A stretch of 41,865 bases of DNA from the IMG/VR virus record IMGVR_UViG_3300043803_001112, positions 1-41,865 of that record; one strand, written 5' to 3'. The position numbers were made by a program, and so were the translations under genes. This document shows positions 6,701-29,400 of this stretch, piece after piece (the first letter of the stretch is position 1; each line of letters begins with the position of its first letter). The notes under the pieces are model-generated. The model was given only the letters and a program-made list of their open reading frames with translations. It was not told the DNA's origin and ran no database searches. Source of the DNA: a virus.

Positions 6701-9700
6701 GAAGATTTAATGTAAGATGTATTTATGATCAAGGCAATGCTCCTTTAGAAGGATGGACGGTTACAGATGCGACTACATCCGCTTTGACAAGAGTTACTAC
6801 AATATCTAAAGTTGAACTAGCAACAAGTATTACTGGTAACGCGGCGACTGTTACAAATGGATTATATACTAGTTCGACTTTAACCGCTGGTAATCTTAGT
6901 GGAACTATTCCTTCAGGTGTTCTTGGAAACAGCACTCATTTTATTGGCACAACATCTATTGCTCTTAATAGAGGATCAGCATCTCAAACTCTTACTGGAG
7001 TTAGTATTGATGGTAATGCCGCTACAGCTACAAATGGATTAACGACTGGTAATTATGGTGGCTACTCGACGTTCTCTGGAGTCGTCTCCTCTGCTAGTGG
7101 AGGATTCCAGACTGCTACCTACGCTGCTGGTCGTAACCGTATATGGAGTTTTGGTAACTCTGATGGCTATGGACTTGCATACTTTCAGGGATCTGGAGGT
7201 GTAGGTGGTTACGATGTAATTGGAATGCATTTTGGTACAGCTACCGCAGCAGCATCTCAATATCAGTTTAATGCTATTGGTTCATTTACAGCAAGCGGTG
7301 ATGTTCGCGCTCCTATATTTTATGACAGCGGTAATACTGCATATTATTTAGATCCTGCAAGCACAAGTAATTTAAATAATTTAACTGTCGCCAATGATTT
7401 AACGGTTAATGGTAACACATATTTAGGAAATGCTGGTGGTGATACTGTATTTGTAAATGATATAATAAGAATTGGTGCAACAGATTCTGGTGACGCATCA
7501 TTATTTTTCGGTGAAGGTAGTGTTGCTGGTAGTGATTATGGTGCTAGATGGTATTGGGATAGCGGTTATACATTTACTTGGTATACAAGAAATGCTGGAA
7601 CCGATACTGCTTTATTTGATTATGTAACAAATGATACAACTTATTTAAATTGGCGTAGACATTTCCATATGCAAAATAAGGAAATTAACTATAATGCACA
7701 AATTCATTTTAATGCAGGAACAAGATTTGTTGGAAACAACACTCAATATTTAATTTTTAAATCTGATTCAACATCTTTAGGTGGAATTCAAATTAAAGAC
7801 GGAAGTGATGCTCTAAAAGGATATATTGGATATTGGGATTCTGGTGGCGGCGGTATATTAAACAATACAGGAAATTGGGCAGTAAGATATAACTTTGGAA
7901 GTTCAAGTTCAGGAGGAACATTGTATGGCACTTGGAATTCTGATACTGATTTCCGCGCACCAATTTTCTATGATAGTAATAATACAGCATATTATATTGA
8001 TGGCGCTTCTGGTAGTAAATTAAAATATTTACAAATCGATGGCGATTGGGGCAGTTCACCTTTTGGTTCTGGTCATGAAAGTTTTACCATTCGTAGCACA
8101 TACGCTTCGATGGTTCAAAGACAAACAAATGGTGGTTTAGGTTATTGGTTGCATCATATAGCTAGTGATGCTGCATATTATTTATATGGTGGAAAAGGCG
8201 CTACTGATGGTAGCAGTTGGGATTGGTCTTACAAAGCTTATCCAAATCAAGACGGTAGTTATGTAGAATTTAGAACTAGCGCCCGCGCACCTCTTTTTTA
8301 TGATAGTAATGATACTGCTTATTATGTTGATCCAAATGGCACAAGCTCTTTATACAATTTAAGTTTAGTTGGAGCTAAAAATACTTATTTAATAATTAAT
8401 CCTGGAAATGGCTCTGAAGCTATGGTTAGATATATTGGTGGCAGTGGAAGTGGTTGGTACGTTGGAAAAAGAATGTCATCGCAATTAGTAGGAACAGCAG
8501 ATTTTCATTTCTTTTCAGAAGCGGCGGGAGCCACAGTTGGTGGAGTAGATACTTCTGGAAATATATTTTCTAGTGGTAGCGTGAGATCACCTATATTCTA
8601 TGATAGTAATAATACTGCATATTATGTAGATCCTTCAAGTACAGGTTATTCAGCATATTTTGCTGGAGCAATTCAAGCTACAAAAATTGGTATTGAAGAT
8701 GGTGGGCTTGATTGTTATATGGAAATTACTGATGCTAATCCAACTGTTTATGGAGTAGGATATGGTGGTGAGTTTATATTCTATGGAGACAAATCTACAC
8801 CCGCTTCATTTTTATATTATGGTGGAGCAACAGTAACTTACACATTACAAGCTAATTCTAGCTTAAGATCGCCTATTTTTTATGATAGTAATGATACTGG
8901 TTATTATTGTGATCCCGCCAGTAATTCTGTATTGAATGGTTTATACGTTAACGCTTATTATAATCTTTCAAATGATTATAAAGATATATATGTTTATGGT
9001 GATGTTAATACTTATTACGTTGTCTTAATACAAGGAGAATATTTATATAGTTTTGGAAGATATAGTGTTACTAGAGGTTATAATTGGACTGGACCTGATA
9101 CATGGAACACTGCAAGTCATAAAGGCGGTTTAACTTTAGATTGGGAATGGTCTGGTGATACCGCTTGGGGAGGAAATGATAAAGCGATAAGAATAATTGA
9201 GTTCAATGAAAGTTATAGCACAATGGTTGCTGGATTGGGTTATCCAGTAAATGGTGGAGTTATCATATGGTTGAGAGGTGGCGGCGTTGGTGGCGCACAA
9301 TATAGAATTAGAACTCCAATTGGTTCTAATGCCACAGTAACAGCGTATGATGGTGTTTCAGCAACAAATCATTCAACATTAACTACATTTACTGCTGCCG
9401 ATTCAAGTGTATTTACTACAAGAGCTAATGCAAATAACGTCTCAGCAGAAATACTCGCTAGATATCCAGTCAGAAGTGCTGCGAGTCTTTATAATGATAA
9501 TAATTTAGTTGTAGATATAGGATCAGGCACTCAAACTAAATCTGGTATTTTTGCATCTGCCGCTTCAGTAAGAGCGCCAATTTTCTATGATACTGATAAT
9601 ACTGCATATTATTTAGATCCAGCCGCTGGAACTTCTTTAAGAATTGCAGGCGCAATTGTTGGAGACCATGCTGCTTGGACTGGAGAACAAAATAAAATAC

Positions 9701-12219
9701 AATGGCACAGTAGTCATTTGTATTTTCAAAATACCAGTGATGGATATTTTATATTCAGAAAGTCTAATGGCGCTGAACCATTTACACTTAGAATTGCTGA
9801 AGAGGCTGGATACGCAACGGGTTCTTGGAGAGCGCCAATATTCTACGATAGTAATAATACAGCTTATTATACAGATCCAGCAAGTACAAGCAACTTACTT
9901 GGTTTAACTGTCGTTAATACAATTACCGGAAGTATCACAGGTAATGCTGGTGGAAGTTCTGCTTCTTGTACTGGTAATGCTGCAACAGCAACTAGAACAA
10001 GTGGTCAATCTGGATATCCACATGCTGGAACAGGTATGTGGGCATTCTATAACTGGGGTGGTAATGATGGTGGAACATCTGCGCCATCAGCAAGTACATA
10101 CACAACAGGTCTTTCAGTTGGATCTAATCCCGGCGATCAAGCTTATGGATTCCAAATTGCTAATAACATGTGGAATACAGGATTATGGACAAGAAATTAT
10201 AATAGCAGTTTTGGAAGTTGGATTAGATTATTAGATAGTTCTAACTACGTTGGATATTCTGCATTCACTGGAAATGTTGATGGTACTCAATTCAGAGATG
10301 CTAATGATACTACTTATTATTTAGATCCCGCAGGTACTTCTAACTTAAACAAGTTTAGTACTCTTACTATGTCTTACAACGACATGAATTCAATGCATGT
10401 CAATTCACCTTATGTTACTAGATATAACTCTGGGGCAGCTTATCGTAATGGTACAATGGGTTGGAGTACTGTTGATTGTAATCACATGTTTTCTAATTGG
10501 GGTTCTGGTTTTATTGATAGTTGGACTAATCCAGCAAACGGACCGGGTAGTTCAAGTCACTATGTAGGGTTTCAGAGTCTTCATTACAATCATCAAAATA
10601 ATGTAAATGGATATGGCTTCCAGATGCTCTGTGCAGGAGAAGCAGATAACAGGTTTTTTTGGAGAAGTGCTTGGCCGACTTTAAGAAGTTGGGTGGAGAT
10701 GATTCATACTGGTAATATTGCATCACAAACAGTAACTTCATGTACAGGTACTGCCGGTTCAATCAGTGGATTTAACAATCCTACAACCGCTGCTACTGCA
10801 AATACAATTGTTTATAGAGATAGTAGTGGGCATATAATAGGAAATTATATATTTGGTGGATATTTTAATTCCAGTGCGGGAAACAGTGAAAATCCAACAA
10901 TTGGACAAATATGGACACAAAGTACAGGGGATAATTATTTAAGAAAATCAACACCTGCTCATTTTAGAAGTCAAGTAACAGATGGTTCATATCCATCTTT
11001 GACAGGCGCAAATGCAAGCGGTACATGGAGTATAAACATTACAGGTAATGCTGGTGGAAGTTCTGCTTCTTGCACTGGTAATTCCGCCACTACAACTTTA
11101 GCCACAAAAGCAACAAGAGCAAACGGTAATTTTTATATTGATGATAATTATGGAAATACTGTAGTTGGTGTTTATTCTGCAAGCAGATATCAAGGCGTAT
11201 TTGCGATGGGTGATTCTTATAAATTAGCCGCTGATGGAACCACTACTGGTAATTTGTATGGTATTGCTTGGTCTCATCAAAATGCTGGTGGAGCGGCAGG
11301 TAATCTAGCAAGTCATGGATTATTAATACTAGAAAATGGTGTGTTCAAAGGCGCGTGGGGAGGAGGAAGTCTTAGGACTCCAGGCGATGTTCGCGGAACA
11401 CTTTTTTATGATTGGGATAATACTGGATATTATTGTGATCCTGCCAGCACAAGCAACTTAAACGCTATTACCGCAGCCGGTAATATAACAGCAGCACAAT
11501 ATTATACTGCAAATTGGTTTAGAAGTACTACGAGTGGTAATGGTTTATATAATGAAGCAACTGGTCAGCATTTTTATTCTGATAGTGTTAATTATTGGAA
11601 TGTTGCAAGCTCTGCAAGCGCACAAGGAATAAGATTAAGAACTGGAGGACACAATGGAACAGTTCGTGGGTATTTTTACGCAGATACCAATAATGATGTA
11701 GGACTTTTAAATCAAGATGGTAATTGGAGAATAAGAGTCGTTGGTGGAGATTATACATTGGCTGATGGATCGTCCATGAGAGCGCAAATGTTTTATGATA
11801 GTAATGATACCACTTATTATACTGATCCAGCAAGCACAAGTATTTTAAACGTCGTAAGAGCAAACTCATACGTTCAAAAAAGCGCATCTCAATCATTAAG
11901 CGGAACAGTAGGATGCACAATTGATGTCAATGCTGCTGGTATTCATGTTTTAACTTTAGCCGCTTCAACAACAATATCTAGTTTCACATATAACAATAGA
12001 ACTGCCAACCCTTCTGTAAATACAATCATGTTAGTTATAAAATATGGCGGCACAGCTTCTATTACATGGACTAATGTGTTATGGGCGAATGGTATCACCC
12101 CAACAATAACTGGAGTATCTGGTTATGCAGATGTATATATGTTAACCTCTTATCAGGGAACAACAGGTGTTTGGATAGGAACTGTTGTTGCTCAAGGGCT
12201 AGTTAGCACAAGTTTATAA
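3790..12219 (+). CDS. Giant modular tail fibre, 2809 residues
   Basis: This is a very large receptor-binding or tail-fibre protein made of repeated hinge motifs separated by variable domains. The hinge, FRAPIFYDSNDTxYYxDP followed by a short xSNLNNL strand, occurs about 15 times between 4375 and 11842. Four NVGIGTTSP motifs (about 4639, 4909, 5935 and 6229) lie in the first third. An N-terminal module (IGTT...TLTGVSIDGNAA) recurs at about 6945-7025, and a TGNAGGSSASCTGN module occurs at about 9940 and 11040. The last 110 residues (from SASQSLSG) form a beta-rich tip resembling C-terminal domains of marine phage fibres. No S74 domain was found, so trimerisation would need another means, perhaps the small chaperone gene at 13059. 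The start has no Shine-Dalgarno, only an A-rich run. Sugar binding is inferred. Confidence 0.88.
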   Translation: MAILNHGSTLRTADGGQSTTTIVTASNIGSYAVASNATYYIGTTQNVFNRASGAQTLTGVSIDGNAANITAYTINQNVGSSNSPTFATLQLTRLNFGADNAQPWTVGAGGTAGTGLTFGGDYTSSQAYKIFTAMENVGGNYSKLTLNWHTGIRIGAYYGYGGTRFYNNLVGEGTEIFSVGNADSNVRVVNNIYAQSFYDITNTAYYLDPANTGTSLLVAGSVGVSKTSIRSGSILDVNGYGCFGASAYGFYIGTDATGAFLDAGSQLIRMFAGSSEKLRIQADGNVGIGTTSPSDKLHVYGGSFKVTGGSDLNTGILLSSTSTNVPVVSFRVSDNSQRAKIEVNDANGAAGDRLGFFVYQTGTLNERLSVLGNGNVGIGTTSPGYKLDITGDARIASAAGAGALYFGTLDPSNVYLKVDNNYDLTLAQNASSGNGLYLAGAGNVYVSIDSNNNATADAFIVQNNAIKAGTELFRVQENGVVTASSDFRAPIFYDSNDTGYYVDPNSVSRLSSLRVYSAFDTASSDVYANMRVMRNNATNDGMYIGYGNLGSTGGITRIFGGGATTGELAKYIDYTLEPNSFRAPIFYDSNDTAYYVDPASNSRLLNLGLGNVTPDLRLSVSGDAQLSGILYLGGTAGSYGSWGSRTYTTSGILYNNSSSVEFNNYGYGSTWTFTLGGGNATSSGSFRAPIFYDSDNTTYYLDAANSGTSLLVAGKVGIGTTSPTSLLHLAGVGGDGVAFLRIAGTASDAFNWGSSVMYANLAATETAINLIGKAQSQYNCSYIGYRHVADGSALNMLSLGLYAADHLVNILGNGNVGIGTTSPANKLHVVGSAYSDTDFRAPIFYDSNDTGYFLNPNSTSNLNNLRAATISAANHGLTCVYYGGGATPTNGYLITTNIDYSTFNMPTVIIEGYAYGNGVPIHLEIVWYAYTNSWTNLSYTNLGAWNPGTVSIGTNASGKVCLHLSGLIYYGRFNVRCIYDQGNAPLEGWTVTDATTSALTRVTTISKVELATSITGNAATVTNGLYTSSTLTAGNLSGTIPSGVLGNSTHFIGTTSIALNRGSASQTLTGVSIDGNAATATNGLTTGNYGGYSTFSGVVSSASGGFQTATYAAGRNRIWSFGNSDGYGLAYFQGSGGVGGYDVIGMHFGTATAAASQYQFNAIGSFTASGDVRAPIFYDSGNTAYYLDPASTSNLNNLTVANDLTVNGNTYLGNAGGDTVFVNDIIRIGATDSGDASLFFGEGSVAGSDYGARWYWDSGYTFTWYTRNAGTDTALFDYVTNDTTYLNWRRHFHMQNKEINYNAQIHFNAGTRFVGNNTQYLIFKSDSTSLGGIQIKDGSDALKGYIGYWDSGGGGILNNTGNWAVRYNFGSSSSGGTLYGTWNSDTDFRAPIFYDSNNTAYYIDGASGSKLKYLQIDGDWGSSPFGSGHESFTIRSTYASMVQRQTNGGLGYWLHHIASDAAYYLYGGKGATDGSSWDWSYKAYPNQDGSYVEFRTSARAPLFYDSNDTAYYVDPNGTSSLYNLSLVGAKNTYLIINPGNGSEAMVRYIGGSGSGWYVGKRMSSQLVGTADFHFFSEAAGATVGGVDTSGNIFSSGSVRSPIFYDSNNTAYYVDPSSTGYSAYFAGAIQATKIGIEDGGLDCYMEITDANPTVYGVGYGGEFIFYGDKSTPASFLYYGGATVTYTLQANSSLRSPIFYDSNDTGYYCDPASNSVLNGLYVNAYYNLSNDYKDIYVYGDVNTYYVVLIQGEYLYSFGRYSVTRGYNWTGPDTWNTASHKGGLTLDWEWSGDTAWGGNDKAIRIIEFNESYSTMVAGLGYPVNGGVIIWLRGGGVGGAQYRIRTPIGSNATVTAYDGVSATNHSTLTTFTAADSSVFTTRANANNVSAEILARYPVRSAASLYNDNNLVVDIGSGTQTKSGIFASAASVRAPIFYDTDNTAYYLDPAAGTSLRIAGAIVGDHAAWTGEQNKIQWHSSHLYFQNTSDGYFIFRKSNGAEPFTLRIAEEAGYATGSWRAPIFYDSNNTAYYTDPASTSNLLGLTVVNTITGSITGNAGGSSASCTGNAATATRTSGQSGYPHAGTGMWAFYNWGGNDGGTSAPSASTYTTGLSVGSNPGDQAYGFQIANNMWNTGLWTRNYNSSFGSWIRLLDSSNYVGYSAFTGNVDGTQFRDANDTTYYLDPAGTSNLNKFSTLTMSYNDMNSMHVNSPYVTRYNSGAAYRNGTMGWSTVDCNHMFSNWGSGFIDSWTNPANGPGSSSHYVGFQSLHYNHQNNVNGYGFQMLCAGEADNRFFWRSAWPTLRSWVEMIHTGNIASQTVTSCTGTAGSISGFNNPTTAATANTIVYRDSSGHIIGNYIFGGYFNSSAGNSENPTIGQIWTQSTGDNYLRKSTPAHFRSQVTDGSYPSLTGANASGTWSINITGNAGGSSASCTGNSATTTLATKATRANGNFYIDDNYGNTVVGVYSASRYQGVFAMGDSYKLAADGTTTGNLYGIAWSHQNAGGAAGNLASHGLLILENGVFKGAWGGGSLRTPGDVRGTLFYDWDNTGYYCDPASTSNLNAITAAGNITAAQYYTANWFRSTTSGNGLYNEATGQHFYSDSVNYWNVASSASAQGIRLRTGGHNGTVRGYFYADTNNDVGLLNQDGNWRIRVVGGDYTLADGSSMRAQMFYDSNDTTYYTDPASTSILNVVRANSYVQKSASQSLSGTVGCTIDVNAAGIHVLTLAASTTISSFTYNNRTANPSVNTIMLVIKYGGTASITWTNVLWANGITPTITGVSGYADVYMLTSYQGTTGVWIGTVVAQGLVSTSL
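4375..11842 (+). repeat. Dispersed FYDSNDTxYYxDP hinge repeats, about 15 copies
   Basis: Copies begin near 4375, 5248, 5530, 5845, 6304, 7303, 7951, 8281, 8581, 8865, 9569, 9828, 10288, 11389 and 11777, all in the same frame. Spacing varies from about 260 to 1100 bases, and the sequence between copies is largely unrelated. The hinge is strongly conserved in protein and in much of its DNA. First and thirteenth copies lack the RAP part; the fourteenth has RGTLFYDWDNT. They look like joints between exchangeable fibre modules. Confidence 0.85.
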
Positions 12220-13058: not shown

Positions 13059-13661
13059 ATGAACAACAAACAATATTTTTTAGTCACCAAAATCGATAAT
13101 CAGAATTACTCTATAATTCAAGGCCCAAATTATTTGCCGGAATCATTTGGACCAACAAGTGGATTTAATTTTTTAGAACAAAATTCACCTGAATTGTTAT
13201 CTGATTTAACTTGGCAAGGTAGTCCAAATTTAGCGTTTTGGGTCGCTATCTTTAATGAAAAACCATCAATAAACATTGATCAAAAATTGATAGAAACCAA
13301 AACACTCAATATTAATGAAAAAACTTGCACAATTTCTTATTCAATACAAAACGCAGATACTTCAGAAATAGAAATCCGCACCCAACAATTAAAACAAAGC
13401 ATAAGAACAATAAGAGATAGATATCTTGTGATAACTGATTTTACTCAGTCGTCTGATTCGCCAATGTCTGATGCCGCGAAACTTGATTTTAAAAATTTCA
13501 GACAACAGTTGCGTACAATGTTAGATATCCCAGATATTACTCAAGCGGTGTGGCCCACCATTCCGACATCTGCTCCAAATATAACTATACCTCCATTTCC
13601 TCCAATGCCAAGCTTTAACGGTGTTTCTGGATTCCATCCAATACCAGGCTTTAATGCTTAA
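13059..13661 (+). CDS. Tail fibre assembly chaperone-like protein
   Basis: This is a 200-residue protein directly after the fibre genes. Residues about 110-170 resemble the phage tail assembly chaperone family (Phage_tail_APC type): an RDRYLVITDF segment, an acidic/polar stretch, a FRQQLRTMLDIP helix and a closing VWPTIP. The N-terminal half carries an aromatic-rich beta segment (FWVAIFNEKP) and may bind the fibre. The last 30 residues are Pro-rich with repeated PPFPPMP and FNG/FHP turns, unusual for the family. Expected role: help a fibre fold or attach before tail joining, with the 2809-residue fibre as the obvious client. Family membership rests on motif resemblance. Confidence 0.62.
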   Translation: MNNKQYFLVTKIDNQNYSIIQGPNYLPESFGPTSGFNFLEQNSPELLSDLTWQGSPNLAFWVAIFNEKPSINIDQKLIETKTLNINEKTCTISYSIQNADTSEIEIRTQQLKQSIRTIRDRYLVITDFTQSSDSPMSDAAKLDFKNFRQQLRTMLDIPDITQAVWPTIPTSAPNITIPPFPPMPSFNGVSGFHPIPGFNA

Positions 13662-13681: not shown

Positions 13682-14311
13682 ATGGGTTATTCTTATGACT
13701 ATTATTCTCAAATTTGTTTCTTACTCAGAGACAAAGGATTTTATCCTAAAAATATATTAGATATCGGTGCAAGTGTCTGCCAAACGGCAGACATTATGCG
13801 CCAAATCTGGCCTGTCGCAAACATATTATTATTCGAAGGAAACGCTGAGTGCGAAAAGTTATACCAGAAACAACTTTACGATTATCAAATAAAATTGCTT
13901 GGTAAAATCAACGGTACAACTAAATTTTATAAAACAAAATGGAGTGCAATTTGTTCTGGCAATTCTATATACAAAGAAAACTCGCAAACATATAACGAAC
14001 AAAATTTGATAGTCGAAGAGTTGCCGATTTATAGATTAGATGATTGTGTGAAAGATATTTACGATCTTATAAAAATAGACACTCAAGGTAGTGAATTAGA
14101 TATTATAGAAGGCGGTATAAATACTTTTAAAAACGCTAAAGTTGTTATCACCGAAGTATCTTTTAATAATTATAATGAAGGCGGCTGCAATAAAGATCAA
14201 ATATTAAACAAAATGTTTGATCTAAAATTTGATTATATTATGCCAGTCGAAACAGTTATGAACGATAAGAACGAATTGATTGCCGAAAGTCTATTATTTA
14301 TTAGACCTTAA
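13682..14311 (+). CDS. FkbM-type SAM-dependent methyltransferase
   Basis: This 209-residue protein is the first gene of the modification cassette. The SAM-binding motif I is NILDIGAS at residues 24-31, with an acidic residue after the next strand (LLFEGN, Glu52). The FkbM hallmark follows in the C-terminal half: RLDDCV, then DLIKIDTQGSELDIIEGG (roughly 127-144), then VVITEVSF. FkbM enzymes usually O-methylate sugars or related hydroxyls, so methylation of a glycan made by the neighbouring transferases fits. Its stop codon overlaps that of the convergent glycosyltransferase in a shared TTAA. There is no transmembrane segment. Family call is firm; the substrate is unknown. Confidence 0.85.
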   Translation: MGYSYDYYSQICFLLRDKGFYPKNILDIGASVCQTADIMRQIWPVANILLFEGNAECEKLYQKQLYDYQIKLLGKINGTTKFYKTKWSAICSGNSIYKENSQTYNEQNLIVEELPIYRLDDCVKDIYDLIKIDTQGSELDIIEGGINTFKNAKVVITEVSFNNYNEGGCNKDQILNKMFDLKFDYIMPVETVMNDKNELIAESLLFIRP

Positions 14312-15270
14312 ATCAATACTTTCTTCCACCATTTAATAACCATCTTTGGGCGGAAGTTTCGCGGCGTTTCATTTAAGCTTGAATAAGTTTTAAACATATT
14401 AATGTATTCTTGCATGTCGGTAGTAAGATTTTTATTATTTATTAATTCAGATAAACTTCCTAGACCGTTTATACCATAAACAAACGGTGTCGTCTTTAAT
14501 ATGTCGGATAGTACAACGCTTATGCCAAAAGTCTCGGGCATAGTGTTGACATAAAACATGCCGCGACATTTCGCCATCAGTTCTATAACTTCTTTAAACT
14601 TCAAAGTTCCAAGATAATTAATTCCATAATCTTTTTCGCTTATGTCTTGGGTCGGATTGTCATATCCCGGTAAACACACATTCAATACATCAGTTTTACT
14701 AAGTAGTTTTTCATTTTTTAGATATTTCCATAATGGTAATGTGGATGAATATCCTTTCATTAAACTACTGGCGTATATATAATCTTTCTTGTTCTCTGGT
14801 ATAGAATACTCATATACCCAATCAGGTATCATGAAATAAATTACATGCTTGTCCCAAGATTTTGGAAACAAATCGTTATGAAAATTACTGAGGGTAATTA
14901 AAGTTAGTTTCTTTTCTTCAAATAGTTTATAGAATTTTAGATTATGAACGCCATTCAAATCGGTTGCCCACATGAATGCTTTTTTGTGAGCGATTTTAGG
15001 AATTTCGCTATACCTGTGGATTATTAAATTCTTGCACTTGAATTTATAACTATCAACCAACTTGTTTGGCGCATACAACACTCCATTTACAAAAGATTCT
15101 TTGTTAGAATTGTTTAGGCATATAACTTTATATCCTTCTTTAGCTAACTCTTCAAGAAGTAAAATGGCTTGAAACTCGCTGCCGCCCATTCCACATTTGT
15201 GCATGGTATTTCCATCGTATGAAGAACCTATGCTATCAAATAAAATAATGTCTGCGTAAATATCCGTCAT
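14308..15270 (-). CDS. GT-B fold glycosyltransferase (GT4-like)
   Basis: A 320-residue soluble protein. The N-terminal domain opens with a strand (ADIILFDSIG) and a Gly-rich GMGGSEFQ loop at residues 28-34, followed by a LLLEELAKEGYKV helix-strand, as in the acceptor domain of GT4-type retaining transferases. The C-terminal domain has YASSLMKG, a nucleotide-facing segment near 160-215, and PETFGISVVLSD near residue 240, equivalent to the E-x7-E sugar-nucleotide region. Its ATG overlaps the stop of the upstream transferase gene (ATGA), so the two are translationally coupled. It would add a sugar from a nucleotide donor in the cytoplasm; donor and acceptor cannot be read. Confidence 0.83.
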   Translation of the reverse strand: MTDIYADIILFDSIGSSYDGNTMHKCGMGGSEFQAILLLEELAKEGYKVICLNNSNKESFVNGVLYAPNKLVDSYKFKCKNLIIHRYSEIPKIAHKKAFMWATDLNGVHNLKFYKLFEEKKLTLITLSNFHNDLFPKSWDKHVIYFMIPDWVYEYSIPENKKDYIYASSLMKGYSSTLPLWKYLKNEKLLSKTDVLNVCLPGYDNPTQDISEKDYGINYLGTLKFKEVIELMAKCRGMFYVNTMPETFGISVVLSDILKTTPFVYGINGLGSLSELINNKNLTTDMQEYINMFKTYSSLNETPRNFRPKMVIKWWKKVLI

Positions 15271-16031
15271 ACAAGAACTTTAAAATCATCTTCATCATTA
15301 TTCTTTACAAAATATTTAGACAGATCGGTTGTCGGTTGTGGATTGAAGGTATTTTGATTTTTAAAAGAGTTGATCCATTTACCAACGTCTCCTACGAACG
15401 TCTTCGCGCCTGTGTGCGAACATGTGATGTTGGTATCGAGATAAATGCTATTACCAAGATTGCGCCACTTCTTACACATATAAATATCTTCGCTGATAAG
15501 ATCGCCGTCTTCACAAACGACTTCAAATACCATTCGTGTGTCACCTTTTTCTGAGGTATACGGTTTGGAAATCTCCCATAAAGCGTTCATAGCTTTGCGA
15601 GAAATTTTCATGAACCCGCAACCTAAACCTGCCACTTCAAGAATGCCGTCTTTATCAACGCTCAAATTTAATTTAGAATTATCTTTATCAAGAGCTTTCA
15701 CAACGTAAAGCTCTTCGTTGTCAGTCTTTTTTCTATAAGATCCACCGATAATATCTTTGTCGCTTTTTACCAGCTTGTAAAAATCTTGAGGATTCCAACC
15801 TACATCACCATCAATAAAAAACAAATTATCAATATCGTTACTATAAGCAAGTTTAAATAAATCGTTTCGCGCACGTTGAATAAGAGAGTCGTAACAAATA
15901 AACAATGGATATACTTCTACATTATTCTTTTCAGCTAATGATAAAGTGTTTAGAAGTGAGTCGATATAATAAACATCCAGTTTACCGTCGTAAGATGGAG
16001 TTGCGATTAATACTTTCTTTTTTTCAGCCAT
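15267..16031 (-). CDS. GT-A fold glycosyltransferase
   Basis: This 254-residue protein begins with a nucleotide-binding strand (KKVLIATPSYDG). It has NLFFIDGDVGW (DGD at 74-76), the DxD metal and sugar-nucleotide motif, then a helix KSDKDIIGGSYRKK. AGLGCGFMKISRKA and VCEDGDLISEDIYMCKK supply the acceptor and catalytic-base region. The arrangement matches GT-A enzymes common in large and marine phages. The gene is coupled to the GT-B gene downstream by a four-base overlap. Upstream, the ATG sits seven T after a GAGG that forms part of a hairpin stem (see terminator). Probably cytoplasmic, working in the same glycan pathway as its partner. Confidence 0.85.
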   Translation of the reverse strand: MAEKKKVLIATPSYDGKLDVYYIDSLLNTLSLAEKNNVEVYPLFICYDSLIQRARNDLFKLAYSNDIDNLFFIDGDVGWNPQDFYKLVKSDKDIIGGSYRKKTDNEELYVVKALDKDNSKLNLSVDKDGILEVAGLGCGFMKISRKAMNALWEISKPYTSEKGDTRMVFEVVCEDGDLISEDIYMCKKWRNLGNSIYLDTNITCSHTGAKTFVGDVGKWINSFKNQNTFNPQPTTDLSKYFVKNNDEDDFKVLV

Positions 16032-16099: not shown

Positions 16100-16381
16100 T
16101 TATCGTGTCAAAGCGGGAGGATATTCTGCCATTACTAGAGTAACGATGGCGGCAGACAATTGGGCGTCCGTCCATTGACCAGCTTGATCATATGTATCTC
16201 CAGACCATACTGTATACCAGTTATGAGCGTAAGGAGTGGTTGATATCTTTACCAAACTCTTTACAGTCTTACCGATTGGGTCGTCTGTGGTTTGAAGGAT
16301 TTCGATTTGACTGGTATTAGCAGCTTGTTGAATTTCTACAGCACTTGGTAGATTGATAATTGGGAATGTTGGGTCGCTCAT
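16100..16381 (-). CDS. Small protein of unknown function in the modification cassette
   Basis: A 93-residue protein, not recognised. It has a Pro-containing N-terminus (MSDPTFPIINLPSAVEIQ), a polar middle (QTTDDPIGKTVKSLVKIS), then an aromatic WYTVWSGDTYDQAGQWTD segment and a C-terminal helix (AQLSAAIVTLVMAEYP). There is no signal peptide, transmembrane helix or metal-binding motif. It lies between the sulfotransferase (40 bases upstream) and the hairpin before the glycosyltransferases, all on the minus strand. The W-Y/W-GD-W pattern suggests a small folded domain of a kind seen beside phage fibre genes. It may belong to the virion rather than the glycan pathway. Confidence 0.6.
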   Translation of the reverse strand: MSDPTFPIINLPSAVEIQQAANTSQIEILQTTDDPIGKTVKSLVKISTTPYAHNWYTVWSGDTYDQAGQWTDAQLSAAIVTLVMAEYPPALTR

Positions 16382-16421: not shown

Positions 16422-17246
16422 TTAATAATCGTAACTAAAAGCTTTATAGAACCAAGAAAACTTGTTGTATATATTATCGCAGTTCTGTTTTCCAAGAATA
16501 TCTATATAGTCGTTAGGCACTGGTTTGATTACTTTTTGAATTGTATGGTCACCAAAAGGAATGTGCATACGATCATCTTCAAAAGTCTTTTGTTCTACAT
16601 TATTAAAGTCGTGTTGATAAAACGGCAATCCAAGATACTCGTACACTCGTTCCATTTCTCTTTGAGGATTACTGGCGAAGTTTTCAAACTTAATAAATAA
16701 ACATTTCTTACTTAATTTACGCATAACGGTATCATACAATACATCAATACTTACAGCAAGTGGCGGCGCTTGCATTAAAAAGTAATCTATTCTCTTATCA
16801 ACCGTAGTGTTACGAAGTTCGTTCCAGTTCTGAAGGCCAGCATCAATGTGCTGATATTGTCGCCACTTCTTTTCCATGCTCGCCACAACTGCTCGCAGAT
16901 CGCGAACCATAACAATAACCTTTGGTTCTGGATAATACCAGTTTAGAAAATCGTATGTAACGCTCCAGCCTCTGCTTTTGTCAATAACATATTTCTTATC
17001 AGTGATGGCGTTAAAATATGCAAACATACCTTCTTTACAAAGAGCTTTGAATGCTGGTTCAACTACATTAATGTCTTGAGCCTTAAATTCAATATTTGTA
17101 GAATAAATATTTCTAGCATTAAGGAAGATTTCAATTAATCCACTAGTTGGTGTTGCATAAAAATCAGGATTTTGCGCCAGCACATTTTGTAAAAGTGTCG
17201 AACCTGCCCGAGGTAGTGAACATTGAAAAAATATCTTTTCAACCAT
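16422..17246 (-). CDS. PAPS-dependent sulfotransferase
   Basis: The chosen start gives 274 residues. Sulfotransferases move a sulfuryl group from PAPS to a sugar hydroxyl or protein side chain. The 5'-phosphosulfate loop is at the N-terminus (SLPRAGSTLLQ, residues 10-20) and the 3'-phosphate motif is VRDLRAVVAS (114-123, with Arg115 and Ser123). YVIDKSRGW near 86-94 and a C-terminal YEYLGLPF segment are also typical of the Sulfotransfer_3-like group found in marine phages. A longer ORF to 17318 exists, but its 24 extra residues precede the first core strand and would overlap the divergent APS kinase gene, so 17246 is preferred. The neighbouring APS kinase would supply PAPS. The acceptor is unknown. 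Confidence 0.85.
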   Translation of the reverse strand: MVEKIFFQCSLPRAGSTLLQNVLAQNPDFYATPTSGLIEIFLNARNIYSTNIEFKAQDINVVEPAFKALCKEGMFAYFNAITDKKYVIDKSRGWSVTYDFLNWYYPEPKVIVMVRDLRAVVASMEKKWRQYQHIDAGLQNWNELRNTTVDKRIDYFLMQAPPLAVSIDVLYDTVMRKLSKKCLFIKFENFASNPQREMERVYEYLGLPFYQHDFNNVEQKTFEDDRMHIPFGDHTIQKVIKPVPNDYIDILGKQNCDNIYNKFSWFYKAFSYDY

Positions 17247-17256
17247 ACCATATAAT
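17247..17256. promoter_or_regulatory. Ten-base divergent gap between sulfotransferase and APS kinase starts
   Basis: The two start codons face away from each other with only ten bases between them, ending in TATAAT directly before the plus-strand ATG. There is no room for full promoters plus leaders, so the promoters must lie inside the 5' ends of the opposite genes, or the transcripts enter from farther off. The gap holds no Shine-Dalgarno for either gene. Confidence 0.3.
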
Positions 17257-17712
17257 ATGCCAATTGGTTCGTTTTTAAAGGTATTAATTATGGGCTTGCC
17301 GGGATCTGGTAAAACCACATTAGCGGCAGATTTATCTTATCTTTTGAGCCATCATTATAAATGTCATTGGTTAAACGCAGATAAAGTTCGTGAACAATTC
17401 AACGATTGGGACTTCAGTGAAGCTGGTCGTGAACGTCAAGGTAAAAGAATGAAAGATTTGGCCGACATGTACGGTCAGTATAATGAAATAGTCATTTGCG
17501 ACTTTGTATGTCCGTTTCAAAAAACCAGAAATCAATTTGATCCTGATTTTTTAATATTTATGAATACCATTAACGAATCAACATACGAAGATACTAATAA
17601 AGTGTTTGAGCCGCCCAAAAAGTTTGATATTGAAGTTCAAAGTAAGAATAGCAGTTATTATTCTAAAATGATATACAACGAATTAGTTCGTAAGTTAAAT
17701 AAAAAAGTGTAA
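17257..17712 (+). CDS. Adenylylsulfate (APS) kinase, short phage form
   Basis: This kinase phosphorylates APS with ATP to give PAPS, the universal sulfuryl donor. The Walker A loop is GLPGSGKTT (13-21) after strand FLKVLIM. LNADKVREQFNDWDFS (39-54) matches the APS-binding D-x-x-R and FS elements of CysC, and the following GRERQGKRMKDLADMY helix is also characteristic. ICDFVCPFQKTR corresponds to the SP-x-x-x-x-R strand region. At 151 residues it is shorter than cellular CysC (about 200), as in phage homologues with the C-terminus trimmed. No ATP sulfurylase is seen, so host APS would be used. It is divergent from the sulfotransferase, ten bases away. Alternative: a related P-loop kinase, but the APS motif favours this call. 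Confidence 0.85.
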   Translation: MPIGSFLKVLIMGLPGSGKTTLAADLSYLLSHHYKCHWLNADKVREQFNDWDFSEAGRERQGKRMKDLADMYGQYNEIVICDFVCPFQKTRNQFDPDFLIFMNTINESTYEDTNKVFEPPKKFDIEVQSKNSSYYSKMIYNELVRKLNKKV

Positions 17713-18285: not shown

Positions 18286-19620
18286 TTAGATCTTGCCAGT
18301 GCCAAGCTTGAAGAAGCCTGATGTAATAGAGTCTAATTCGTTTTGATAACTTCCAGACATAAACAATCCAGCGGTTGTGTCGTTTGCGCCGCCGATTTGA
18401 ACTGAATATGTTAAATCTACAGTTTGATTATCACCAAGATTTTCAGAATATGTTTCAGAAGATAATAGTGCGCCTCTGATTTCATAAACAATCTTATTTG
18501 CTGATGAGCTATTTTTCAATGTAATTGAAAGAGTTTGAGTTCCACTTGTTAAAGCGTCAAAAAGATTTTGATCTTTTAGTTCAGAAACAATTGCGCTAAT
18601 ACTTACATCCATATTAATAGGAACATTAACAACTCTTGCGAAACCAAATGTATTTCCAAGTCTTTGTAGAATTGTTCTGCTCAATGGAAGAGTAAAACTA
18701 AATGATTGAATATGAGCGTCTGCTAGATTTGTTAAACCAACGCTGTTTCCAAGAGAAAGAACTATATCACCAGGACGCAATGCGCTTACAGAACTTACTC
18801 CAGTGGTGAATCCTGTAAAATCAACACCAGCGGCAGCACCAATTGCTCCAGTGAAATCTCTTGAATAATCAAGTTTATATGCAGAACCAATAGAAGTAAA
18901 TTTAGTAGCTGGAGTAGCAAAAAGATTAATTGCTGCGCTATTTCCAGTTATTGAGGTTATATTTGCGCCAACCACTGATGTTGCGGGTGCATTTCCGGTT
19001 GTTACGGTTGTGACGGTTTCGGCTGAATCAGATTTGATGTTAAAAGCTTCAACAGTTACGCTTGCTGTTGGAATAGCTCCAACAGAAGCTTCAAAACTAT
19101 ATTCGCTAACGAATCCATTACCAATTCCTACTATAGTAGAATTTGGGGTCAATGTTCCGCCAACAACGTCTTCACCTTCATCTACAGTTAAAATGTAATA
19201 ATTATTACCTTGTAGATCAGTTAGTAATCCAGAAATAGCTTGTGCGCCATTAACGATATTTGTATCAGTAACTCCAGTAATATTAAAGCCCATTAATCTT
19301 TCATTATAGCCATCAGTTACATAATAACTGAAATCAAGTCCAACTGTTGGAGCTTCCATAACAATAGAATCGATACGAGCTAGTTTACCGAATTCATTGA
19401 TATCTTGTCTATTAATTGTAAAATTAAAATTACAATTTTGAATGCGATCCATCTTCTTTAGAAGAGAAATACCGGATGCTAGTGAACCTGTATCAGTTGG
19501 AGTAAATGGAGAGGCAGTGAATCCAGTACCTGCGCTATCTACTCCGCTTACTTGTACTCCAGTAGAACTTGGAGCGATAAATAAAGCTTGACTTTGGTAT
19601 ATTACACGATTTCTTGCCAT
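18286..19620 (-). CDS. Major tail tube protein, two-domain
   Basis: This 444-residue protein is the last gene of the leftward neck operon and ends at the terminator. Two regions look like copies of one tube fold. Residues 58-100 (IQNCNFNFTINRQ, FGKLARI, APTVGLDFSYYV) align by pattern with about 300-345 (IQSFSFTLPLSRT, NTFGFARV, VPINMDVSISAIV). A middle stretch (SVGAIPTASVTVEAFN) separates them. A duplicated tube protein is known from T5 (pb6), which builds a trimeric rather than hexameric ring stack, so a T5-like tube is suggested. Position after stopper, gp10-like and terminator-like genes supports the role. The gene is preceded by a 70-base A/T-rich gap that may hold its own promoter, expected for an abundant protein. 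Confidence 0.82.
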   Translation of the reverse strand: MARNRVIYQSQALFIAPSSTGVQVSGVDSAGTGFTASPFTPTDTGSLASGISLLKKMDRIQNCNFNFTINRQDINEFGKLARIDSIVMEAPTVGLDFSYYVTDGYNERLMGFNITGVTDTNIVNGAQAISGLLTDLQGNNYYILTVDEGEDVVGGTLTPNSTIVGIGNGFVSEYSFEASVGAIPTASVTVEAFNIKSDSAETVTTVTTGNAPATSVVGANITSITGNSAAINLFATPATKFTSIGSAYKLDYSRDFTGAIGAAAGVDFTGFTTGVSSVSALRPGDIVLSLGNSVGLTNLADAHIQSFSFTLPLSRTILQRLGNTFGFARVVNVPINMDVSISAIVSELKDQNLFDALTSGTQTLSITLKNSSSANKIVYEIRGALLSSETYSENLGDNQTVDLTYSVQIGGANDTTAGLFMSGSYQNELDSITSGFFKLGTGKI

Positions 19621-23433: not shown

Positions 23434-26400
23434 ATGGCCGTTCAAATCAATGTCGCCGCCAATCAAGCAGCATTAACAGCTTCTATTCAAGCTGGTGTTC
23501 AAGCGTACAATCAAAAATTCGCTCAGAACAATCAGGTTAATTTAAGCGTTAATCAACGAGCTTTCTCTCAGCCGCTCGGAAGAATGACTGGTGATGTTAA
23601 GGATTTTGAGGCGGCTCTTGCCGCTTCTAATGCTCGCGTTATCGCCTTCGGAGCTTCAACCGCTGTTCTTGGTGGTGTTATTCGTAGTTTTAAAGAACTA
23701 GCTAATGTTACTATTGATGTCGAAAAGAATCTTGCTGATATTAATCGTGTATTCGGATTAACTACTGGTCAATTACAAAAATTTAGTACAGATTTATTTA
23801 GCGTTGGTAAACAAACGGCTTCTACATTTGATGACGCGTCTAAAGCTGCTCTTGAATTCTCTCGTCAAGGTTTAAAAGCTGAAGAAGTTTTAATAAGAAC
23901 AAAAGACGCATTAACTTTAGCAAGAGTCGCTGGAATTAGCACTGCAAATTCTGTTGACGCTTTAACTTCTACTATAAACGGTTTTTCTGCAACTGGAATA
24001 ACAACAACTCAAATATTAAATAAACTTGTAGCTGTCGAACAGGATTTCGCAGTTGGCGCAGGAGACTTGGCTGAAGCATTGTCTCGTACAGGTCAAGCGG
24101 CGCAAGAAGCAGGAGTTAGTTTTGATCAGTTAAACGCATTAGTTACATCCGCTCAACAAAGTACAGCAAGAGGCGGCGCGGTTATTGGTAACGCATTAAA
24201 AACAATTTTTACTCGCTTACAACGTACTGATACTCTTGACCAATTAGAAGCTTTCAATATAGCTGTAAGAGATGTACAAGGAAATACTTTACCAGCAGTC
24301 TCTATTCTACAAAATTTCGCAGGTGCTTATAAAAACTTAGGAGACGCTCAAAGAGCGCAGTTATCTGAACAAGTCGCTGGTGTTTATCAAGTTAACATTC
24401 TTAAAGCTATTGTTGGTGATTTAAATAAATCTCAAGGCGTGTATGCTGGAGCTTTACAAAGAGGCGCATCAGCAACAAATGAAGCTGAAATCGCTACCGC
24501 CAAACTAAATCAAACTCTTGACGCTTTATTAAAGCAAACTGCCACTTCTACACAACAACTAGCAAATAATATTGGTAAAGTAACATTTGAACCATTGGCT
24601 AGATATGGTACAGAACAATTGAAATCACTTGTCGAAAGCATGAACGAAATTCTTGAAGGAGAAGGAGTTGGTTCTACTTTCGCTAATGGTTTATTAAAAG
24701 GTATTCGTAATATAATAGCTGGTCCCGGCGCTATCGCTGCTTTCTTTACGCTTTTTAAGTTAATACAAAACTCTTTCACTTATCTTGCTCAAGCTTTGCC
24801 TCAGATCGCTGGTATCACGACAGAAACTCAAAATAGAAAAAATATTGAACAATCTATTTTGCAAATCATGCAGCAACAAGGGCCGGTATCGCAAGCTCTT
24901 GCTGGCTCTATGGGCAATCAAGCTGCACAAGCTCAGTTGCTGCTTCAATTAGCCAGACAACAGACAGCAGAATATCAAATACAATCAACTCTTGCAAAAC
25001 AATTAGCCACTCAATTAGCCGGTCAAGGTGTGCGAGTAAAAGGATCTGGTGGTTTGCAGGTCACTCGCGCAGGAGGTTATATTCCTGCTGCAACAAGAAT
25101 GGCTGAAACAGTTGGCGCACAAGCTGGTGGTTATGCTCCCGGTAAAGTAGTGAAATCTCCTGTTGGTGGAGTAATGAATACTGCGGAAGATGTTAAATAC
25201 GTCCCCGGTTTTGCTCAACCTTTTATTAATCCTCCTGCTGGATCAAAAGCTGGCCGCGCACATAGACAAAACGCTATAAGTAGAACGGGTGTTGATCCGT
25301 ATATGAATAGTGGATTTGTGCCTAATTTTGCTTCAAATTATTTAGCAAAGATGGATGCTGGAAAAGTTTTTGATAATACAATAGCGATTGCTATTGGCTT
25401 AAAACAAGCGTACTTAGAAGACAACGATATATTAGATTATAATCCGTTTGAGTTTAAAGATCCACAAGTAAAGGAAAAACTAGGCTTAAATAATAAGACT
25501 TTTTGGGGAGACGCTAAATTATCAGAAAAGCCTATTAATTTAGACAGCTATATTTCTAAAATAATAAGGTCTAATAACGCTACTATTAAGAGTACTAGAT
25601 CAGGCAATTGGTATGTCAAGCCTACAGTAGAAGGCGGGTCTGTGATTTTACCTCAAACAGCAGGTGGGCTTGATAAGAACGTTGTACACAAAACAAATAA
25701 AAGAAATTTAATTGCAAAAAATAAATCGATTGCGGGACGACTTAGTGGCATAAGCGATAAAGACATAATATCTTCAAATCTTTTCTTAGATCGCACTAAA
25801 GTTCCTCTTGAAAAGACGTATGTAGCTAAAGGTTCAAATAAAAAAGAAACTGCTGAAAAATTAGCTTTGGACTATAAGTCTGGAGGTTTTATTCCTAATT
25901 TTGCTCCTCCTACAAGTGCAATAAGAATTCCTTGGTTTAAGAAATTTGGTAATGCTGCTTTTGATAAAATCCAACCTACTTTAGGAATATCTAAAGCTAG
26001 TGATGTAGATACATTTAGACAAATTGGTTTTAGAAGCACTGCTAAAGGTGCAGATGAAAATGGTGATCCTAATATTTTCGGTCCATTATATGAAACTTTT
26101 AGTAGAAAAGCATTACAATTAATAAATAAATCCAATATATTTGGTGAATTTGTTAGAGGCAGTGTATTGCAACCTAGAGCAAAATCTAGTCAAACTGCAT
26201 TTGATGACGCTCTTTTACAAGATGATGGAATTATCGGTCTTGATTTTAAAGGTTTTCCGAAAAAAAATTTATCAGGTGGCTCGGTTGCTAAACACATGAA
26301 TGATAAATTAAAGAGAGTTGCTCAAACTGATCCTGAACAAGCGGCTAAAATAAAAGAAGGTGTCATGGTTTTCAATGAAACTGGCCATGAAAATCAATTG

Positions 26401-29400
26401 CCATCTGAGTTTGGTAAAAACTTTCTTGAATTAGCTGCAACAAGTTATTCTCAAATATTGAAGAATAGCCCTGATCTTGTAAAAGCATTGTCCGCAGAAA
26501 CAAATAGTTTATTAAATAATTATGTAAAAGATCCTGAGTTCTTGGCAATGAATGCTGCAAAAGGTTTTATTCCCAACTTTGCGTATAAACAAGCAGTAAT
26601 GGGCTTAGAAGAAAGCATGAGCGGAGAAAAAGCCGTATTCGATACTAAGCCTTTCCCACACATTAGAAACAAGAGTCAGCCAACATTCAGTTCCGCAATA
26701 TCTGATCATGGTGGTTTAAGTAATGCGTTGAGTGATTCAATGAGAGGACAGAAGAATGCTGGATTGATGAGTAAAGGATATATTCCTAACTTTGCTGATT
26801 TTAGTTCTTCTGGAACAGCAATTAGAGAGAGATCTGGAAGAGTAACAAGTAGAAATTCAATTGATACTGCTATTAATAATTATATAAAAAGTATAGATTT
26901 ATTAAAAACCAATAACGTTCAAATAAACTCAGCAGTACAAAAAATATTAAAAAGTTATAATTTACAGGCAGCATCTTTTAATGAGTTGTTAAAACAAGTT
27001 AAAGCTCATGCTGATGCAGAAAGAAACGCCGCTAATCAAACTACTGCAAATACATCTACTTCTAAATCTTTATCTGAAAAGTTTTTTGGCGCAAAAGGAG
27101 CAAAAGCAGATAAATTTGCAAGTTCAAAATTAGGTGGAATTGCTGGTGTAGTGGGTGGAGCTTTAATTGGTGGTCAGTTAGAAAATCTTATTCAAGGAGG
27201 CAGAGATAGATCTCAGTTAAGTACTGCTGAAAAATTTGCATCGAGCGCATCTAGTGGAGTTTTAACTGCTACAACAACTGGTGCTGAAATTGGATCGATG
27301 ATTCCAGGGTTAGGAACTGCTGCTGGAGCAGCAATTGGAGCTTTAATTGGTTTAGGCAAAGCCGCTTATGACTCTCAAGATTCGTTAGAAGACTTGCAGA
27401 AGTCTTCAGAATTTTATAAAGCACAAGTTGATAATATTATTAGTTCAAGTGGTTCCTACATCCAGCAATTAAAAGAAATTAGTTCTATATCAGATCCATC
27501 TTTATTAAATCAAGCTTCTTTTAAACTATCAGAAACTTTTCAAAATTTATCAAAAGAGTCTCCTGAATTAGGAAGAAAATTTATGGAAGCAGGTGGTGAT
27601 ATAGATAAGATGGGTAAAGCTATTGAAGATTTTACTAGTACTGCAAATATGGTAAAATCAATAAATAATTTAAAAACTTCTTATAAAGAAAGTGGTGATA
27701 AATTATCTTTTACAATACCAGTCCGATCAAATCAATTAGCAAAAAAAGGATATAATATTCAGCAAGGCTCTGGTGATATAAAAGAAACAGAAGCAAGTTT
27801 GCAGACATCTTTCGTGCAATTTCAAGGTTTTTTTGATTTACTCAAAAAGGGCGGATTAACTGCCGAAAATTCTTCTGCATTTATGGAAGAGTTTCAAAAA
27901 GAAATGCAAGGTTATACATCCGAATCTGATTTAGCGGCGATAGCTAAAAAATATAATATATCAGAAACGATTGCTAAAGAGTTAGCGGATTTATCTGATA
28001 ATGTAATAGATGAAATGGGAGTCGAAGGAGATTTTTTTGTAGCTAATAGCGGGGTTTTAGTGAAGAGGTTTTTTGACGCTACAAATGATAAATATAAAAG
28101 CGCCGCTCAACAGCTTGAAAAACAACAATTTAATGCGCGACCAATCATAAAAAGAATAGAAGACTCTATTTCTAATTATGTATTTAACATCGCTTCTCAA
28201 CTTCAAAACATGGAATTTGAATCAAGTAGGTTTAAGATATTGGAAAATGCCGCTAATAATTATTTAGATTCTATTTCAACTCCTTTAGAAAAAGCTTCAA
28301 GAGAAATATCTTCTAGAAATAGAGAAACTCAAACTAAAACAGAAGCATCTAGAATGAAATTCACCTCTGATTTTGAACAAAATATTGGTTCAAAATTACC
28401 TAAAACATTAGGTGGATCTGATGCTGGTACGCTTGGAAAACTTGAAAAATTAATTGAAAGTTTTAAAACTTCATCTCCAGAACAACAATTAAGCCAAATA
28501 AATGAATTAATTAAAAATACAAATTCTGTAGAAGCTACAAGCGCAGCGGGATATAAAAATGTCGATCCAAACGAGGTAAAATCATTAAACGCTGAATTAA
28601 AAAAAGAGCGAGATTCTTTGATGTTATTAATTCAAACTAAAAAAGAAAATCTTTCTTTAAGCGCTCTTGAGAACGATGTTGCTAAAAGAAAAGCAGAAAG
28701 TACAGAAAGATTATTAATCTTACAAAATAAATTAATAGAAAGCGATACAAAACGAGCAATTTCTATTGCTGGTCAAAAAGCAAACATTGATATAAGAGAG
28801 AATGATTTACAAAATACTAGAAAAACGCCTGGTTTTGGATTTGGAGTATCTGAAGGCCGAATAAATAGAGAAACTATAATGCAAAATAGAGGATTGATGA
28901 TGGAAAGACAGTCTTTAACAAGGGCGGATACTTTAGGAAACGTAAAATCGCAACTTAAAAGTACACTTTTTCCTATATTAACCCCAATAAAAACTGCATT
29001 TCAAGAAATTGAAAAAGTATCTATATCAGAACAACCTAATTTATATAAAAATTTAGGTGTTGATAAAGTAAATATATCTGATATGACAGATTTATTTAAT
29101 TTAGATGATATGCTTGATAAAATAAATGATCCAGCTTCATTAGAGAGTTTTAGAAAAAATTTAGAATATATCTTTTCAAATATCGATCAAACTTCAGTTT
29201 TATATAAACCTTTGCAAGAACAAATGGGGATTATATCTCAAACATTAATTGGTCTTGATAAAGAATCTAAAATTTTTGAATCAAATTCTCAAGCTGATAT
29301 CAAAATTGCTGACGTAAACGATAGAATAAATAATGCATATATATATCGCCTTAATACTTTATTGCAAATTGAAAAAGCTCAAAGAGGAATTTTAAATACA

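Follow-up and report, generated by a model that had tools for sequence, protein, structure and literature searches.

Why would a phage carry, among its tail genes, a gene for a sulfotransferase back to back with one for a kinase that resembles adenosine 5'-phosphosulfate (APS) kinases, and what would such a pair modify? The question is raised by IMG/VR record IMGVR_UViG_3300043803_001112, a virus record of 41.9 kb that we analyzed as one stretch of 41,865 nucleotides (the window). The two genes, here called ST and KIN, were examined for fold, active-site residues and linkage in other phages. Our best explanation is that they form a phage sulfonation unit, most likely one that caps a glycan on the phage's own virion, and taken as a whole we give this account an even chance. 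The sulfonation chemistry of the pair is strongly probable, and a virion glycan as the acceptor is about an even call. An earlier note on this DNA had placed the two genes here in divergent orientation; open reading frames (ORFs) for both were confirmed, with the start of ST moved to the ATG at 17246. PAPS below is 3'-phosphoadenosine 5'-phosphosulfate.

16422..17246, (-) strand: ST, PAPS-dependent-type sulfotransferase by prediction, 274 aa; Sulfotransfer_3; phrog_27463
17257..17712, (+) strand: KIN, predicted APS-kinase-fold P-loop kinase with a short lid, 151 aa; phrog_10255

The ATG at 17246 is a more likely start for ST than the GTG at 17318, and the alignment of its relatives begins at that methionine. 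With this start, the start codons of ST and KIN lie 10 bp apart. The divergent arrangement is kept in 14 contigs, in some of which the ST copy is cut by the contig end; a 15th contig contains only the first 25 residues of ST.

ST passed the cut-offs of two Pfam families, PF13469 (68.2 bits, cut-off 27) and PF00685 (44.2 bits, cut-off 22). It contains the motifs SLPRAGSTLL and VRDLRAVVAS, which resemble what we take to be the 5'-phosphosulfate-binding (5'-PSB) and 3'-phosphate-binding (3'-PB) loops, respectively, and its residues R13, G15, R115 and S123 are unchanged throughout an alignment of 25 sequences (A4). The AlphaFold model of ST (pLDDT 91.7) resembles sulfotransferases bound to 3'-phosphoadenosine 5'-phosphate. 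Its best seven PDB entries are all tyrosylprotein sulfotransferases (TPSTs; Z 19.4-20.0, root-mean-square deviation (rmsd) 3.6-4.0 over 239-245 residues), followed by a sulfotransferase of the curacin pathway (Z 16.0) and heparan 3-O-sulfotransferases (Z at most 14.2). ST shares with TPST1/2 (3ap1, 5wri) the fold along the whole protein, the 5'- and 3'-phosphate loops and an aligned lysine (K90 of ST). On the other hand, it is only 16-17% identical to them, it has no membrane segment, and a phmmer alignment, which compares sequences and is not a residue-level structural match, places the GEETR stretch of the TPSTs opposite TPTSG in ST. The glutamate of GEETR is the catalytic base of the TPSTs. 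Similarity to the NoeE-type nodulation sulfotransferase, an enzyme that acts on a glycan, was detectable at 48.7 bits, a small fraction of the 500 bits that the equivalog requires. Matches to the sulfotransferases of Synechococcus phages S-SKS1, S-SCSM1 and S-SRM01 covered 98-100% of the ST query, but at only 24-30% identity, and none of these phages is among the five records that matched KIN at E 1e-3. Near its sulfotransferase, S-SRM01 carries genes annotated as a glycosyltransferase and a nucleotide-sugar epimerase. By modeled fold and conserved PAPS loops, ST is a PAPS-type sulfotransferase that would be expected to carry out the transfer.

KIN reached 53.5 bits against the Pfam APS_kinase profile PF01583 (cut-off 21.1), in a match that covers only profile positions 5-91 of 152. 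Its Walker A motif is GLPGSGKT. For the AlphaFold model of KIN (pLDDT 93.7), each of the top 30 of the 50 PDB entries shown by VIA-align was an APS kinase or contained an APS-kinase or APS-kinase-like domain (Z 16.4-19.5, rmsd 2.0-3.3 over 132-151 residues), and a gluconate kinase came next (Z 15.1). In one CysC, PMC4373884 names the P-loop Lys456, Asp480, Arg483, Phe492 and Arg497 as APS-binding residues. The corresponding residues of KIN, assigned from shared motifs by way of E. coli CysC in the alignment, are K19, D42, R45, F53 and R58; K19, D42, R45 and R58 are unchanged in 28 sequences including E. coli CysC. The likeness to the APS kinases (CysC, or the APS kinase domain of PAPS synthase) thus extends from the fold and the Walker A to the Asp, Arg, Phe and Arg of the APS pocket. 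The motifs that the earlier note had read in the two proteins are all present, with key residues invariant in alignments of 31 (A3) and 25 (A4) sequences, and the comparison with CysC and sulfotransferase structures that it had called for gave the expected folds. The model shows KIN as an enzyme of APS-kinase fold whose pocket is APS-like and whose lid is unusual, and APS is its presumed substrate.

If the two proteins work together, their genes should be found together elsewhere. We scanned viral sequences from ST alignment A4, kept the best 80 of 569 confirmed stretches and called the kinase by a domain-only profile. Domain-only profiles were used both for the kinase and for a nucleotidyltransferase with an HxGH motif (NT), since fusions made broader profiles merge. 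Three of the 25 ST sequences in A4 came from loci originally found via the kinase (two of them in L021, the third in L044). A kinase was present in 55 of the 80 loci, every time within 1.2 kb of ST. The two genes overlapped or were at most 40 bp apart in 32 of the 55, although overlaps are perhaps overstated as ORFs were taken from the first start codon, and they lay on the same strand in 49. Counted by ST cluster, a linked kinase occurred in 27 of 42 clusters at 80% identity and in 4 of 5 at 60%. The linked loci also contained NT (45 of 55) and the membrane protein DUF2061 (44 of 55).

As a control we seeded the search with GT254, a putative glycosyltransferase of the window that is described below. 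A kinase was found in 6 of the 7 loci with ST as compared to 2 of the 73 without it (Fisher p = 6.4e-7); many of these loci are short, they were not dereplicated, and 5 of the 7 with ST come from contigs that the ST-seeded set had already included. The linkage counts and this control rule out chance proximity: the pairing of ST and kinase is recurrent and functionally linked. Gene order and strand vary, being divergent in the window clade and tandem, as ST-K or ST-GT9-K, in other groups; this variation suggests that the genes came together on more than one occasion. Two kinase subtypes take part. Type A, that of the window (NAD.VR ... GR.RQ), is often fused or adjacent to NT, and type B (DGD..R ... 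GR..N) is nearer classical CysC. In the window clade, the partner of ST is a type A kinase that stands alone. The recurrence of this pairing with unlike kinases, gene orders and strand arrangements suggests that the combination itself is selected. Both genes are also under purifying selection: dN/dS, the ratio of nonsynonymous to synonymous rates, was 0.015-0.038 for ST (7 of 10 pairs with usable dS) and 0.055-0.290 for KIN (9 of 10 pairs), ratios that are rough because dS is high.

The earlier note had proposed that the pair makes PAPS and uses it. Fold, pocket residues and linkage bear out a single unit, but KIN by itself cannot begin with sulfate. Across the window and 11 contigs of its clade, 12 fragments in all, we found no ATP sulfurylase (PF01747, 0 of 12), no member of PF01507 (0 of 12; the PAPS reductase family, with CysD as a relative) and no credible NT. 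A Pfam search of the window KIN protein itself found no ATP-sulfurylase domain. An 18.6-bit NT-region match in clade contig G131 lay inside the gene for the 2809-aa putative fiber and was judged spurious. Two other candidates for an NT or an additional kinase were discarded as well: a 16.3-bit match in G147 and, in G145, a further P-loop protein (18.4 bits). As the window fragment carries the kinase without Sat or NT, there is a hint, and only a hint, that its APS may come from the host. With PF01507 missing from this set of fragments, PAPS made by the window phage has no phage-coded reductive use in the sequences examined.

Many relatives of KIN differ from the window protein in being fused to NT. 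They resemble the bifunctional PAPS synthases (PAPSS; Sat-CysC fusions) in joining an APS-kinase-like domain to an HxGH nucleotidyltransferase. In contrast to those enzymes, their NT best matches CTP_transf_like in Pfam and nicotinamide mononucleotide (NMN) adenylyltransferases in NCBIfam and the PDB, while PF01747 stayed under its cut-off. Because NT is fused to an APS-kinase-like domain, the analogy suggests that it may make the kinase's adenylylated substrate in the manner of an ATP sulfurylase; salvage of nicotinamide adenine dinucleotide (NAD) is a real alternative. Somewhat tentatively, and at clearly less than an even chance, we suggest that KIN and the NMN adenylyltransferase-like NT could form a compact PAPS synthase, in which NT would make APS from ATP and sulfate and KIN would convert it to PAPS; the phage ST would then sulfonate virion glycans, and the window phage would borrow APS from its host. 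That DUF2061 might aid sulfate entry is a guess. If KIN-NT does make PAPS, it would be a new enzyme architecture for sulfate activation, present also in marine bacteria in which no ATP sulfurylase was found.

KIN and NT also lie side by side on the chromosomes of SAR11, SAR86 and other bacteria, most of them marine; the 80 best of 283 loci were kept (for example L118 7998-8775 and L130 8001-8782). The pairs in the inspected loci of L100-L179 adjoin apparent housekeeping genes. A CysD model found nothing in 8 small marine KIN-NT genomes, a weak absence given that many are single-cell or metagenome assemblies; all 3 larger marine genomes had CysD matches, under the equivalog cut-off, with CysN adjoining. 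Sat was found in none of 5 marine genomes (4 of the 8 small ones, 1 large), an absence that is weak for the same reason. A Sulfotransfer_3 protein occurred in 8 of the 11 KIN-NT marine genomes, including 5 of the 8 small ones. There was no clear sulfation cluster in 8 inspected KIN-NT neighborhoods, in two of which (L107 and L100) sulfotransferase-like ORFs were seen by eye, and the phage ST profile matched in 1 of the 80 bacterial loci. These neighborhoods neither prove nor refute a role in PAPS synthesis, and they weigh against a universal link to ST. In 2 of 30 loci from Pseudomonadota, examined with flanks of only about 1.5 kb, the predicted membrane protein DUF2061 occurred with sulfate-activation genes; it was beside such genes in none of 6 further loci. 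In L209, a DUF2061-like stretch forms a C-terminal extension of CysN (a weak 25-bit match), and in L203 DUF2061 lies downstream of CysH-like and CysC genes. As evidence for sulfate activation DUF2061 may be called suggestive.

What the pair would sulfonate must be read from its surroundings. The record encodes a 2591-aa tape measure protein together with minor tail, tail assembly, fiber-type and fiber-assembly proteins, and it is very likely a phage fragment; from these genes, which point to a long-tailed phage, we infer a siphovirus. Tape measure, minor tail and fiber-type PHROGs flank ST and KIN on both sides, in agreement with the earlier note's tail region. A small module (FkbM, GT320, GT254, a 93-aa protein, ST and KIN) lies between fiber-side genes and the remaining tail genes:

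3790..12219, (+) strand: 2809-aa repeat-rich protein, putative tail fiber from position and repeats only; candidate acceptor
13059..13661, (+) strand: tail-fiber assembly / Phage_tail_APC protein
13682..14311, (+) strand: FkbM-family methyltransferase, convergent with GT320
14308..15270, (-) strand: GT320, putative glycosyltransferase by sequence reading; 4-bp overlap with GT254
15267..16031, (-) strand (that of ST): GT254, putative GT-A glycosyltransferase with an IDGD (DxD-like) motif; phrog_1574 (function unknown)
16100..16381, (-) strand: 93-aa companion protein between GT254 and ST, no assigned function
23434..31209, (+) strand: tape measure protein, 2591 aa, marking the long-tailed phage tail region

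The glycosyltransferase neighbors that the earlier note had reported are present as two putative enzymes, but their labels are weak: GT254 matched a glycosyltransferase PHROG (phrog_12406) at E 0.0012 and no Pfam family above its cut-off, and family searches of Pfam and PHROG gave no match for GT320. In other phages, genes for GT254, GT9-like proteins and FkbM recur near ST, and these recurrent probable glycosyltransferases favor a glycan as the acceptor. TPSTs as the nearest fold keep a protein acceptor open. Mean hydropathy over 19 residues peaked at 1.18 in the seven module proteins that were tested, and none of them had a membrane-like segment; the work would therefore be cytosolic, during virion assembly, and the simplest target would be one in the cytosol, such as a virion protein or the glycan on it.

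We propose the following course of events. APS would be made by the ATP sulfurylase of the host. KIN, to judge from its fold and pocket in silico, would phosphorylate the 3'-OH of APS to give PAPS, from which ST, with its modeled fold and PAPS loops, would pass the sulfuryl group to the acceptor. The neighborhood suggests that this acceptor may be a short glycan built by GT254 and GT320, perhaps methylated by FkbM, and carried by a virion protein, for which the adjoining giant putative fiber is the simplest candidate. Sulfonation would take place in the cytosol as virions assemble. The acceptor is the weakest step of this explanation.

The rate of change of ST bears on the nature of the acceptor. 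Between the window and L055, ST is 96% identical, the glycosyltransferases 89-90%, o170 87% and KIN 64%, while six other tail-side genes (o331, o259, o151, o196, o286 and o444) are 46-75% identical. Between the window and L062, ST is 94% identical (dN 0.046, dS 3.34), the glycosyltransferases are 66-72% and FkbM is 60% identical. By dN, ST is the slowest-changing protein among those compared in its neighborhood (window, L055, L060 and L062). Such constancy would fit a fixed acceptor better than an arms race over the host surface.

Several observations weigh against the sulfonation unit as proposed. KIN scored only 45.1 bits against the apsK equivalog TIGR00455, far under the cut-off of 138.7. 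It is short, at 151 aa, and has Gln at the position of an Asn of E. coli CysC. The CysC lid comprises about 30 residues with Arg559, Lys562 and Phe576 in PMC4373884; compared to this canonical form, the lid of KIN is shortened to a loop with the motif YEDTNKVF (alignment A2). The nearest solved structures to ST act on tyrosine rather than on sugar. The fiber was chosen as acceptor from its position only, and a PHROG search gave no match for it. No kinase was found within 10 kb in 25 of the 80 ST loci. Ten of these have less than 1.2 kb of sequence on one side, and 12 have at least 5 kb on both, so some ST phages have no nearby kinase. Likewise, 19 ST contigs outside the window clade had no kinase in the first 16-kb loci, and in 17 of them searched whole a kinase turned up elsewhere in only 4. 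The window-like type A accounts for just 6 of the 55 ST-linked kinases, the other 49 being type B. Finally, in loci seeded with KIN, ST was present in only 15 of 80, as compared to NT in 58 and DUF2061 in 22, and kinase and NT were fused in 37 ORFs. The kinase therefore also occurs in contexts without this ST. Among 101 of its 142 neighboring ORFs in 16 loci of other phages, no partner family was dominant in the 25 most frequent of 87 Pfam families.

Two alternatives keep the chemistry and change the acceptor. Modification of the host surface by phage-coded enzymes is a known strategy, and ST could act on a surface glycan or its precursor, thereby blocking rival phages or re-adsorption. In many relatives ST is adjoined by GT9-like genes, which narrowly miss the Pfam cut-off for Glyco_transf_9 (E 0.0004), and the predicted membrane protein DUF2061 would suit such a target. 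The seven window proteins, however, show no membrane-like segment, and an ST that is 94% identical to that of a phage whose glycosyltransferases have diverged to 66-72% is a poor fit to an arms race; we regard a host-surface acceptor as unlikely. ST could also be a true tyrosylprotein sulfotransferase that modifies tyrosines of the putative fiber or of another virion protein. TPSTs are its nearest solved structures by sequence and fold, 3.4 Z units over the next protein. The putative fiber contains 12 FYD(S/T)..YY.D-type repeats and 199 tyrosines, 117 of which have an acidic residue within 5 positions (raw counts, no background), but an acidic residue stands at -1 in only 8 of the 199, and TPTSG in ST is aligned where the TPSTs have GEETR. 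To our knowledge, few structures have been solved for bacterial glycan sulfotransferases, and given that scarcity a TPST as the top match says little about the acceptor. We rate a tyrosine acceptor as very unlikely.

The remaining two alternatives separate KIN from ST. KIN might act on another substrate, either in NAD salvage together with NT or as a 3'-kinase of another nucleotide, as does the cytidine diphosphoramidate kinase of Campylobacter capsule synthesis, and ST would then use host PAPS. Fusions of an NMN adenylyltransferase with a kinase exist (NadR), NT is nearest to NMN adenylyltransferases, and KIN lacks the canonical lid. In Stenotrophomonas phage Bhz60 (L097 5556-6732) a KIN-NT fusion and a gene for a NADAR domain overlap, which hints at NAD or ADP-ribose metabolism; there is one NAD synthase gene among the 101 KIN neighbors, and 65 of the 80 KIN-type loci have no ST. 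Against this, the fusion profile is nearer to APS kinases (1.5e-11) than to NadR (1.6e-5), the phosphosulfate-binding Arg residues are invariant, a PAPS-type sulfotransferase is linked in 55 of the 80 ST loci, and DUF2061 is fused to CysN or follows CysC in 2 of 30 loci, albeit in 0 of 6 further ones. Another substrate for KIN is, on balance, decidedly unlikely. Lastly, KIN could be a cysC-type auxiliary metabolic gene (AMG) that feeds PAPS to cysteine synthesis, with ST an unrelated neighbor. Phage cysC is indeed assigned to assimilatory sulfate reduction in PMC10914622. The linkage counts oppose this, as does the want of PF01507: the family was found neither in the 12 window-clade fragments nor among the 25 most frequent of 87 Pfam families in the 101 of 142 KIN neighbors covered, from 16 loci of which only L048 has a phage-type ST. 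We consider a role in cysteine synthesis highly improbable.

A phage sulfonation unit that most likely acts on the virion thus remains our preferred explanation, and the linkage to ST argues against a sulfate-assimilation reading for this kinase family. PMC10580990 describes the function of sulfotransferase genes in phage genomes as unclear and PMC8290583 enters a sulfotransferase as an AMG. Among the matches listed for phage sulfotransferase function, phage PAPS and DUF2061, most subscription journals being outside the scope, there was no description of a phage ST-APS kinase cassette. The recurrent linkage would mean that part of the phage cysC-like family serves sulfonation, and it makes sulfonation directly testable on virions, as a gain of 80 Da.

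Part of the module also occurs on its own. An ST-o93-GT254-GT320-FkbM cassette (o93 being the 93-aa companion) is present in another phage backbone without an adjacent KIN (L061, L062, L063, L066 and L067), and it seems to move as a block. The 93-aa protein (16100-16381 in the window; 10553-10825 in L068) travels with ST/GT cassettes in different phages. In L065 (5940-10007) there is a tandem pair of ST-GT254 units, whose STs are 57-58% and 84% identical to that of the window. Outside the module, a 444-aa protein encoded at 18286-19620 is present in a single copy in the window, and it has three tandem matches in L005 1572-4698 / L069 3828-6954, which are one contig.

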